A stretch of 41,843 nt of DNA from a virus: the IMG/VR virus record IMGVR_UViG_3300042503_001060, positions 1-41,843 of that record; one strand, given 5' to 3'. The notes under the pieces were generated by a model, which made no database searches, was not told the origin of the DNA, and was given only the letters and a program-made list of their open reading frames with translations. A program made the translations under genes and the position numbers. Within the stretch, counting starts at the first letter, position 1; each line of letters opens with the position of its first letter. Of this stretch, positions 10,352 through 13,714 are shown piece after piece.

Positions 10352-10387
10352 AAACACAAAAGCCCGCAGCGGGTTAGGCTACGGGCT
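10351..10387 (-). terminator. Rho-independent terminator after the 107-aa regulator
   Basis: Minus-strand transcript: stem AGCCCG/CGGGCT (10387-10382 with 10366-10361) followed by TTTGTGTTTTT. A nested CCCGC/GCGGG alternative exists. It ends the 13.7-10.4 kb transcript just before the tandem promoters start a new one. Confidence 0.75.
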
Positions 10388-10417
10388 CTTGCTGTGGGGC
10401 TGGGTTGTCGGGAAGGT

Positions 10418-11323: not shown

Positions 11324-11677
11324 TTACGGAGCGAGATACAGCCAGCCCTGCTCGCGGCAGATGTCCGGCAAGGTTTTGTACCCGCGGTAGTCAGAATGAT
11401 CGCCAATGACATTGCCGCAAACGGTCATGCCAGCCAAAGCTGCAGCCAGCTTGTCGTACCCGTACCCGTTTGCCGTCGCATAGTGCCACCGCTTGCCGTC
11501 GTCGGCAGTGTGGTCATACAGGGCAACGCGCAAGCGACCTGCGCCGTCCACGGGGTAAACCACGTCGATACGGGCGATGACTTCGGGCAGGCCGTCGCTA
11601 CCGGTGCGCACAACGCGACCGCTGCAGCATCGAGGGTGGTTTGCCAAAGTCCAGGGCTTGTTCTTGTAGTCGGTCAT
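11324..11677 (-). CDS. 117-aa protein of unknown function
   Basis: The ATG at 11677 has AGGAG upstream. Beta-rich, with ARIDVVYPVDGAGRLRVALYD and YDKLAAALAGMTVCG, and a Tyr/Gly-rich middle (ATANGYGYDK). First gene downstream of hammerhead element A, so its message would begin with a ribozyme-generated 5' end. Function unknown. Confidence 0.65.
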   Translation of the reverse strand: MTDYKNKPWTLANHPRCCSGRVVRTGSDGLPEVIARIDVVYPVDGAGRLRVALYDHTADDGKRWHYATANGYGYDKLAAALAGMTVCGNVIGDHSDYRGYKTLPDICREQGWLYLAP

Positions 11678-11706: not shown

Positions 11707-11758
11707 GGCCTCGTCAGGCAGCGCGATACGCTGCGACACCCCGTGGGGTGTTTCGGCC
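11707..11758 (-). ncRNA. Type II hammerhead ribozyme, element A
   Basis: Read on the minus strand: stem II 5' side GGCC, GAAA core, stem III (6 bp, tetraloop CACG) closed by the A15.1-U16.1 pair, cleavage triplet GUC, stem I (GCAGCG/CGCTGC, loop TATCG), core CTGACGA, stem II 3' side GGCC. All invariant hammerhead residues are present. Predicted cut lies between 11735 and 11734. It starts 9 nt after the stop of the 101-aa gene. Confidence 0.88.
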
Positions 11759-11767
11759 TGTGTTGGT

Positions 11768-12073
11768 CTATTCTGCGGCAATGCCCAGCTTGCCATGCTC
11801 GCGGGTCATCGGCACAAACCACGCCGCACCATCGCTGTCCTGCGTGAAGTAGCCGACAATGCGCTGACCCTTGCAGCGGGTTACGGCTGGGATGCTGAAA
11901 TAGGTGTCAGCGTAGGCCGTGGCATAGCAGGTCAGGCGCTTGTCGGTCCCTTGGATCGGGCAGTTCTTGACCTTGGCCCATGGCCCGAGGCAGTCAAACG
12001 GGCCGCCTGGCCGATAGCCAATTGCACCGTTAGCAAACTCGTACTTCTCACGTGCGGCAAACTTCTGTTCCAT
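11768..12073 (-). CDS. 101-aa protein of unknown function, flanked by two ribozymes
   Basis: The ATG at 12073 has GGAG upstream. Begins MEQKFAAREKYEFANGAIG and includes TCYATAYADTYFSIPAVTRC and IVGYFTQDSDGAAWFVP. Beta-rich, soluble, four Cys. If hammerheads B and A both cut, this gene is released alone on an RNA of about 395 nt (12129-11735). Function unknown. Confidence 0.65.
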   Translation of the reverse strand: MEQKFAAREKYEFANGAIGYRPGGPFDCLGPWAKVKNCPIQGTDKRLTCYATAYADTYFSIPAVTRCKGQRIVGYFTQDSDGAAWFVPMTREHGKLGIAAE

Positions 12074-12100
12074 GTGCTGCTCCTGTTGTGTCGGGTAACT

Positions 12101-12153
12101 GCCCATCGTCAGTGCAGGCGATACCTGCAGACACCCTAGCGGGTGTTTCGGGC
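12101..12153 (-). ncRNA. Type II hammerhead ribozyme, element B
   Basis: Minus strand: GCCC, GAAA, stem III ACACCC/GGGTGT with tetraloop GCTA, GUC, stem I TGCAGG/CCTGCA with loop TATCG, CTGACGA, then one extra T before GGGC of stem II. Predicted cut is between 12130 and 12129. The element begins on the base right after the stop codon of the 109-aa gene. The extra T could weaken stem II. Confidence 0.85.
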
Positions 12154-12483
12154 TCAATACGCGCTGTAGTGCACGGTCTCGTTTGGCTCGCGTGAACCGG
12201 GCCAGCCACAAACCACGTCCTCTACCGCCTCAATGGCTGACAGCAGCGCCAAGTAGCCTTCCTCATCTTCGGGCTGGCAAAGGGGCAGGCAGTCGCGGAA
12301 ATCGGCCAGAGCCATCGCGTAGTCGTCCCAAGTCATGTAGGACCATTCGCCACACTGCAACTTGTACAAGGGGCAGCCAATACCGCCATGCCAGTCTGTA
12401 GCGGTGAAGGCAGCGGCGAGCAGATCGCAGCTTGGCTCGTCGACGTGGTAGGTTCCTGCGGTCAGTTTGTAAGTGGTAGCCAT
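12154..12483 (-). CDS. 109-aa protein of unknown function
   Basis: MATTYKLTAGTYHVDEPSCD..., start ATG at 12483 with GGAG upstream. Acidic C-terminal half (LCQPEDEEGYLALLSAIEAVEDVV) with aromatic WSYMTWDDYAMALADF. No membrane segment and no known motif. Preceded by a predicted promoter and immediately followed by hammerhead B. Confidence 0.65.
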   Translation of the reverse strand: MATTYKLTAGTYHVDEPSCDLLAAAFTATDWHGGIGCPLYKLQCGEWSYMTWDDYAMALADFRDCLPLCQPEDEEGYLALLSAIEAVEDVVCGWPGSREPNETVHYSAY

Positions 12484-12524
12484 GGTCTGTTGCTCCAAGG
12501 GGCCGCAGTAGCGCGGCAGGTGAA

Positions 12525-12553
12525 CCCTAACAAACTCAGCGCAATGCTGTCAA
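12525..12553 (-). promoter_or_regulatory. Possible promoter for the 109-aa gene
   Basis: Minus strand: perfect -35 TTGACA (12553-12548), 17-nt spacer, but a poor -10 TTAGGG (12530-12525). The adjoining palindromes could be activator or repressor sites that compensate. Confidence 0.35.
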
Positions 12554-12574
12554 GTAGGGTCAGGTGAGAAAGTT

Positions 12575-12608
12575 AGCCAAGGGATAACAATGCGTTATGC
12601 GATTGGCT
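12575..12608. other. Nested palindrome (cruciform-like)
   Basis: Outer arms AGCCAA (12575-12580) and TTGGCT (12603-12608) enclose inner arms ATAAC (12584-12588) and GTTAT (12594-12598). Lies in the 302-nt gap 12484-12785, just upstream of the -35 at 12553. Candidate regulator-binding site or RNA hairpin. Confidence 0.5.
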
Positions 12609-12626
12609 GTCTAGGCAGGGCGGAAT

Positions 12627-12653
12627 GTGATCATGCGGCTTTCGCAGGATCAC
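12627..12653. other. Imperfect hairpin GTGATC...GATCAC
   Basis: Outer 6 bp GTGATC/GATCAC, one A-G mismatch, then TGCG/CGCA around a 5-nt loop. In the same gap as the nested palindrome. No T-tract, so not a simple terminator. Confidence 0.5.
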
Positions 12654-12741
12654 GCTGCTTTGCAGGAATCCGCCTCTGTCGTGACGAATCCCTATTATCC
12701 CTACTGCTCCCCTAGACTTGTGCTAGATAACCGCTCTTGAC

Positions 12742-12758
12742 ACTTGGGCGCACCAAGT
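12742..12758. promoter_or_regulatory. Operator-like inverted repeat ACTTGG-5-CCAAGT
   Basis: Perfect 6-bp half-sites separated by five bases, the size of a dimeric HTH repressor site. It lies 27 nt downstream of the 73-aa gene's end. The two XRE regulators encoded nearby are candidate ligands. Confidence 0.4.
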
Positions 12759-12785
12759 TTGACAAGCGGGGAGGGTAGGGCGGGG

Positions 12786-13007
12786 TCAAGATGCAAGGGT
12801 GACCGACCATTGTTCCCACATGGATTGCAGGTCAATGCTGTTGGAGCCAGCTACAACGTTGCATGGAAGTGTCCAGCGAGTCACGCAAGCCTCTGGAAAG
12901 ATTGAGCGCAGGTGGTCGGCAAAGGCATCCATGCGAGGGTCGGAACCGCCAATACGGATGTCTACACCGAGGCGTTTGGGAGCTTGGGTTTGTGGCTGTT
13001 GGTTCAT
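12786..13007 (-). CDS. 73-aa protein of unknown function
   Basis: MNQQPQTQAPKRLGVDIRIG from an ATG with GGAG upstream. A Gln/Pro-rich lead, then DPRMDAFADHLRSIFPEACV and a Trp-rich end (SMWEQWSVTLAS). First gene downstream of hammerhead C. No family recognised. Confidence 0.65.
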   Translation of the reverse strand: MNQQPQTQAPKRLGVDIRIGGSDPRMDAFADHLRSIFPEACVTRWTLPCNVVAGSNSIDLQSMWEQWSVTLAS

Positions 13008-13040
13008 GGTTGGTTGCTCCTAAGTGTGTGGAAGGGTTGG

Positions 13041-13092
13041 GGTCTCGTCAGTGCCCGCAGTACGGACAGACAGCCTCGCGGCTGTTTCGACC
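13041..13092 (-). ncRNA. Type II hammerhead ribozyme, element C
   Basis: Minus strand: GGTC, GAAA, stem III ACAGCC/GGCTGT with GNRA tetraloop GCGA, GUC, stem I TGTCCG/CGGGCA (one G-U) with loop TACTG, CTGACGA, GACC. Stem II GGTC/GACC is perfect. Predicted cut between 13069 and 13068. It begins 3 nt after the stop of the 83-aa gene. It differs from A and B mainly by paired, compensating changes. Confidence 0.88.
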
Positions 13093-13095
13093 TGA

Positions 13096-13347
13096 TCAGT
13101 CTTGCCAAGTGGCAAAGCCTACGATGCAGTGGCCCTTATCAGCCGGACGGATGGTGATGTCGTCGCCGTAGTTGTCGACCTCTGCCCGCTGTCCGGTAAT
13201 GCCCATCATCGCTTTGAGCGCACGAACCACGCCGCGATCGGTCAGGCTGCCGTTTACAGTGTCGCGGCGAACCCAGTTGTAGTTCGCTTCACCGCCGAAG
13301 GTGTCGGTGACTTCAAACATCCACTTGCCATTGTTCTTGCTTGCCAT
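13096..13347 (-). CDS. 83-aa protein of unknown function
   Basis: MASKNNGKWMFEVTDTFGGEANYNW..., ATG with GAGAGG upstream. Contains SLTDRGVVRALKAMMGITGQ (a helix) and IRPADKGHCIVGFATWQD. Similar in layout to small phage proteins in early regions; the fold looks like a beta sheet plus one helix. Directly followed by hammerhead C. Function unknown. Confidence 0.65.
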   Translation of the reverse strand: MASKNNGKWMFEVTDTFGGEANYNWVRRDTVNGSLTDRGVVRALKAMMGITGQRAEVDNYGDDITIRPADKGHCIVGFATWQD

Positions 13348-13685: not shown

Positions 13686-13714
13686 AATCTAGGACTGCCC
13701 CACAACCCTGTCAA
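13686..13714 (-). promoter_or_regulatory. Main leftward early promoter
   Basis: Minus strand: -35 TTGACA (13714-13709), 17-nt spacer, -10 TAGATT (13691-13686). It begins the leftward gene block and directs the transcript that carries all three hammerheads. Confidence 0.7.

Follow-up and report, generated by a model that had tools for sequence, protein, structure and literature searches.

The window, a stretch of 41,843 nucleotides taken from an IMG/VR virus record, has its large genes, among them those for the terminase and the portal, on the plus strand. RecT, a DnaB-like helicase, an HNH protein and an HTH regulator are encoded on the minus strand, as is a string of small ORFs punctuated by three hammerhead-like elements, A (13041–13092), B (12101–12153) and C (11707–11758). 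Read in the direction of transcription, an 83-aa ORF (13096–13347, minus strand; phrog_22729, unknown function) ends 3 nt before stem II of A, and a 73-aa ORF (12786–13007, minus) without an assigned family begins with an ATG 33 nt past the element. A 109-aa ORF (12154–12483, minus), which has 84% identity in close relatives, ends at B, a 101-aa ORF (11768–12073, minus) without a family lies between B and C, and a 117-aa ORF (11324–11677, minus) follows C. The HTH transcriptional regulator (PF13560; 10418–10741, minus) is the final gene ahead of a terminator-like hairpin with a T-run (10356–10392, minus). Upstream of the unit, a consensus scan, which was also the source of the terminator-like site, identified a weak promoter-like TTGACA-17-TAGATT sequence (13686–13714, minus), one of four such sites found in the region against 1.5 expected from shuffled sequences. 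The promoter-like site at 13714–13686 and the terminator-like site at 10392–10356 could bracket the ribozyme unit. A setting in a replication or early operon, the latter as proposed by an earlier sequence-only reading of this DNA, agrees with the strand shared with RecT, DnaB and the HTH regulator; the early timing and the single transcript are our inference.

Between the 73-aa and 109-aa genes lie about 285 nt of non-coding sequence (12500–12785), which are approximately 88% conserved in the relatives although the preceding gene has been replaced. This stretch has no Rfam match at the cut-off and may hold a promoter or an operator. A blastn comparison of the early region with named phages returned no match, and the portal and terminase gave only remote matches to named phages, at less than 25% identity.

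Each of the three elements is supported by the core pattern, the Rfam model, its orthologues and the minimum free energy (MFE) fold. Element A consists of stem II GGTC/GACC, GAAA at 13088–13085, stem III (A)CAGCC/GGCTG(T), stem I TGTCCG/CGGGCA with the loop UACUG, and the core CTGACGA, with predicted cleavage after C13069 and a conserved A at 13093. Element B has stem II GCCC/GGGC, stem III (A)CACCC/GGGTG(T) and stem I TGCAGG/CCTGCA with the loop UAUCG; cleavage is predicted after C12130, and its conserved A (12154) is the final base of the upstream TGA stop codon. Element C combines stem II GGCC/GGCC, stem III (A)CACCC/GGGTG(T) and stem I GCAGCG/CGCTGC with the loop UAUCG, predicted cleavage after C11735 and a conserved A at 11759. 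The core CUGANGA, the GAAA and the A15.1-U16.1 pair are perfect in all three elements, and the NUH cleavage triplet is GUC in each. MFE folding produced the expected three-way junction from every element (z-scores of -1.9, -3.7 and -2.9); stem II is open, and stems I and III are closed by loops, in these folds, an arrangement also backed by covariation among orthologues and across the family. The core pattern CGAAAC-N12-GTC occurs three times against 0.33 expected, a count reached by no shuffle. The order of the elements, their stems and cores had been described correctly on the minus strand and agree with the MFE folds, but that description had missed an additional U that separates A9 from stem II in B (CTGACGA-T-GGGC) and a U-G wobble among the stem I pairs of A. 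The cut sites it predicted, 13069/13068, 12130/12129 and 11735/11734, coincide with the C of GUC, after which a cut is expected from the established chemistry of hammerheads. No loop I-tail pairing of four or more nucleotides, as needed for a pseudoknot, was found in A, B or C.

Of the Rfam families, RF02276 (Hammerhead_II) matches best in the region for each of the three elements, with scores of 30.7 bits for A (E = 7.9e-4), 30.7 bits for B (E = 7.7e-4) and 26.5 bits for C (E = 9.8e-3) in a 1.6-kb search. Across the entire 41.8-kb record, the model is placed at A, B and C only, and no Rfam family reaches its gathering cut-off. The covariance-model check suggested with the initial reading thus has a divided outcome, in that A, B and C are the best RF02276 matches in the region but none attains the curated gathering score of 37 bits, which is a database threshold and no biochemical definition. 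The absence of a covariance-model hit, which had been named as a refutation, needs to be handled with care because the gathering cut-off misses most of the compact form described below: it was passed by only three of 59 descriptor-found compact elements from 14 loci. Our full type II descriptor matched 193 times in 1.2 Mb of real loci and not once in 2.4 Mb of Markov-simulated sequence, a comparison that shows only that chance matches are rare, as most of the real loci had been chosen for containing the core. Neither the missing Rfam score nor the missing pseudoknot defines the class, and A, B and C remain members of the type II hammerheads.

Two contigs (L004 and L005) encode a terminase 99% identical to that of the window, and both carry A, B and C at the same junctions. 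In these relatives, stem III of A has changed from CAGCC/GGCTG to CCGTC/GACGG and stem I from TGTCCG/CGGGCA to TGCCTG/CAGGCA, stem III of C has changed from CACCC/GGGTG to CAGCC/GGCTG, and B differs in a loop only. The relatives' C also has GUA, the core CTGAAGA and an extra U. Counted by hand, four pairs are changed on both sides and one through a wobble, and none is broken; the covariation that had been proposed from the window is supported by double compensatory changes between orthologues. The neighboring genes have fared differently. Four of the five ORFs adjoining the ribozymes (before A, after A, between B and C, and after C) are not detectably related to the genes at the same junctions in the relatives, leaving the 109-aa ORF before B as the only conserved neighbor. 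The homology blocks are confined almost entirely to A (97 nt) and C (58 nt); the A block reaches from the stop codon of the preceding ORF as far as the following start, and the C block is the ribozyme itself. Ribozyme linkers are conserved between unrelated ORFs. A conserved linker without a ribozyme also occurs (block 6154–6206 of L007). The identity, conservation, compensatory changes and position of the ribozymes, together with the replacement of genes around them, can be read directly from the aligned nucleotides.

A core-only pattern, in which the inner pair of each closed stem is the sole pairing demanded, matched at least 120 stretches in viral contigs. All three stems form in 138 of the 140 distinct matches, and in 139 of them stem II is directly preceded by an A that the pattern does not specify. 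The same pattern applied to bacterial genome contigs, which serve as a yardstick for chance, gave 121 matches, of which only 60 form every stem. A second pattern that leaves loop I unconstrained yielded 142 structured elements out of 145; in this set stem I always closes at 6 bp, and loop I always begins with U and ends mostly with G (112), less often with U (23) or A (7). Among 128 sequences collected without a pairing filter, 98% of the stem cells are paired compared with 25–48% in slid controls, and the stem pairs mostly occur as three to six pair types each. Stem II measures 4 bp in nearly all family members, and the extra U before stem II seen in B recurs in 33 of 181. A loop I-3' tail pseudoknot was ruled out for the compact form, since it can be drawn for 18.9% of the family and for 20.1% of shuffled sequences.

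The sequences place A, B and C in a widespread compact form of the type II hammerhead with a 4-bp stem II, a 6-bp stem I, a 5-nt loop I with an invariant U, an A before stem II and no pseudoknot. By analogy with known hammerhead tertiary pairs, the invariant loop I U and the A before stem II may form a contact between stems I and II in the pseudoknot's stead; the family shows almost no variation in its core or at these proposed tertiary positions. The RF02276 matches, the compensatory changes in orthologues and well over a hundred relatives bear out the type II identity first proposed, so that we consider A, B and C practically certain to be type II hammerhead ribozymes, and their sequences make it very probable that they cut themselves.

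Several further features were observed among the family members. Arrays in metagenomic phages reach 11 type II hammerheads (L033, in the 67.6-kb virus record G013), and the stem sequences shared by this set suggest spread via duplication inside the genome. Stem II sequences are shared between members in many arrays. The sequence GUCAG immediately follows stem II in 24 of 180 elements (L028, L046, L062, L108, L121, L134 and others) and is absent from the window; it complements CUGAC of the core, and a hairpin formed after the cut could make the reaction irreversible. The second linker of L025 (5529, ribozyme strand) has the core TTGACGA where its L027 orthologue has CTGACGA, apparently a decayed array member. 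Methylophilales phage MEP301 (L337) contains at 715–790 an intergenic half-hammerhead-like sequence, CCGAAACGCCC...GGGTGTCTGC, which lacks the full core and is a possible remnant. Inspection of 128 ORFs behind ribozymes for a bias in function revealed no dominant family, with single matches to ArdA, ArdC, anti-restriction and methyltransferase proteins.

We compared the position of 182 elements with sufficient flanking sequence against random places. An ORF stop lies ahead (-8 to +25 nt) of 160 elements as opposed to 23 random places, a Shine-Dalgarno (SD) sequence and start lie behind 142 as opposed to 42, and both are present for 125 as opposed to four of the 182 random places. The stop is located -3 to +5 nt from stem II in 136 of the 160 stop-preceded elements, and in 48 of those stem II begins with the final base of the stop. 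The adjacency to stop codons may only reflect the compactness of phage genomes. In pairs of related loci, ribozyme-touching ORFs have no relative in 52% of the comparisons, compared with 33% for the ORFs within 3 kb and 16% for those farther away; the excess over nearby ORFs does not reach significance when tested by locus (Wilcoxon p = 0.10). A count of junction 'islands' (18/34 versus 5/46) is biased because the ribozyme itself keeps the junction alignable, and the ORF-level test supplements it. An extra unit of ORF and ribozyme distinguishes L025 from L027, which lacks it. The aligned loci place the ribozymes in the variable part of the genome, where they persist while genes change; a special excess of turnover right at the ribozymes is suggested but not proven.

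Clusters of type II hammerheads flanking genes in prophages were already published in 2011 (Perreault et al., 2011; PMC3088659). In that work, tandem arrays from bacterial genomes cut in vitro, a phage-linked triple also did so in E. coli, and the authors proposed processing of the arrays into gene-length mRNAs (PMC3088659). The published type II ribozymes (RF02276) resemble those of the window in the core CUGANGA/GAAA/GUC, the A15.1-U16.1 pair, the open stem II and the closed stems I and III, and are likewise phage-borne in prophages, often with several flanking single genes. The window form differs in having a 4-bp stem II and a 5-nt loop I without the loop I-3' tail pseudoknot, which was reported for most type II hammerheads and is common yet not universal (PMC3088659). 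A close parallel is the Agrobacterium tumefaciens triple around ardA, in which three hammerheads also flank small phage genes on one transcript; it is a different element with different genes, and its cleavage was demonstrated in vitro and in E. coli. Accordingly, clustered phage type II hammerheads are known, and A, B and C add members. In the text of the 2011 survey, we did not find ribozymes shown to persist through the replacement of genes between close relatives, nor a description of the compact form or its fixed place behind stop codons; the novelty of the compact form was judged from that text.

Cultured phages carry comparable arrays. Streptomyces phage Salutena (NC_054657.1, L338) contains 12 hammerheads in a 16-kb stretch and Streptomyces phage Paolo (PP978823.1, L339) six in 6.5 kb, all passing the Rfam cut-off and all missing from the annotated features. 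As in the window, these type II hammerheads lie between small hypothetical genes, but they mostly have a 3-bp stem II, an 8-bp stem I and a longer loop I, nearer to the Rfam consensus. A 71-codon gene lies between two ribozymes in Salutena; the Paolo stretch has no relative of it and one ribozyme fewer at the matching place. In the open-access papers searched, hammerheads and Streptomyces phages were named together only in one, on antibiotics and phage infection.

If the minus-strand operon is transcribed, each hammerhead would cut itself after its GUC. The upstream RNA would then end in the stem III hairpin roughly 25–35 nt past the stop codon, and its downstream counterpart would start with the stem I hairpin, bearing a 5'-OH, followed by the next Shine-Dalgarno sequence and start. 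This would split the polycistronic RNA into mRNAs of one or two genes, all with standard ends, and identical trimming of every insert would allow accessory genes to be swapped without disturbing the expression of the others. We infer cleavage in the cell, division of the mRNA and the insulating benefit. The best explanation overall, and in our judgment a probable one, is that cutting at each junction gives exchangeable small genes a standard, hairpin-ended mRNA. That the ribozymes insulate the swapped genes is about evenly balanced; insulation is favored by the predicted hairpin ends and by the precedent of RiboJ, a ribozyme with a hairpin that standardizes 5' ends and gives more mRNA and protein, with protein increased two- to tenfold in E. 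coli (PMC6206723). The cut of RiboJ, built from the sTRSV ribozyme and a hairpin, likewise leaves a standard hairpin-headed 5' end before the ribosome binding site, although RiboJ is engineered, is inserted downstream of a promoter and ahead of the gene instead of at gene junctions, and is not of type II. We propose the window elements as its natural counterpart.

Four other explanations were weighed, given here in falling rank. The terminating ribosome might cover stem II and GAAA and so delay folding, in which case cutting would report upstream translation and uncouple the next gene. The narrow spacing of stop and stem II in 136 of 160 elements (-3 to +5 nt), the shared base in 48 and the gaps of 3, 0 and 9 nt in the window fit such a switch; compact packing alone gives the same spacing, and the 9-nt gap belongs to element C, so that we regard it as unlikely. 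The linkers might instead serve mainly as homology for phage recombination, RNA cutting being incidental, as they form homology islands amid unrelated ORFs and an ORF-ribozyme unit differs between L025 and L027. This role at the DNA level appears quite improbable, as the compensatory substitutions keep RNA pairing yet lower DNA identity, and the core and proposed tertiary positions hardly vary.

Two cuts could also free a single-gene RNA with a 5'-OH and a cyclic phosphate, which would then be circularized either by RtcB or by the reverse of the cleavage reaction. The right end chemistry is expected between A and B and between B and C, and stem II sequences are common to the members of many arrays. 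However, stem II differs among A, B and C, which would make chimeric re-closure poor, and Perreault et al. report that their search for spliced or circular products was negative (PMC3088659); circular RNAs are accordingly very improbable. Decayed remnants or an inactive chance resemblance would accord with the scores of A, B and C below the Rfam gathering threshold and with the apparently decayed TTGACGA copy in L025, but the perfect cores of all three elements, the compensatory changes between orthologues and the lack of descriptor matches in simulated sequence make this reading barely credible.

What purpose hammerheads serve in bacteria and phages was left open in the text of the 2011 survey, and we found no later answer in the open-access literature. 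Returning to the preferred explanation, mRNA division at gene junctions, the retention of the ribozymes in close relatives whose genes have changed suggests that the cut at the gene boundary matters rather than any one gene. Standard annotation misses most members of the compact form, and the arrays in cultured Streptomyces phages, such as the 12 hammerheads of Salutena, make the question testable. We tentatively extend the idea, with somewhat less than even confidence, to the compact, pseudoknot-free type II hammerhead behind the stop codon as a general punctuation of phage accessory-gene strings, which would make each ORF an insulated, self-trimmed mRNA and permit gene gain and loss without upsetting the neighbors. 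If true, phages would have evolved RNA insulators like those that synthetic biologists build with RiboJ.
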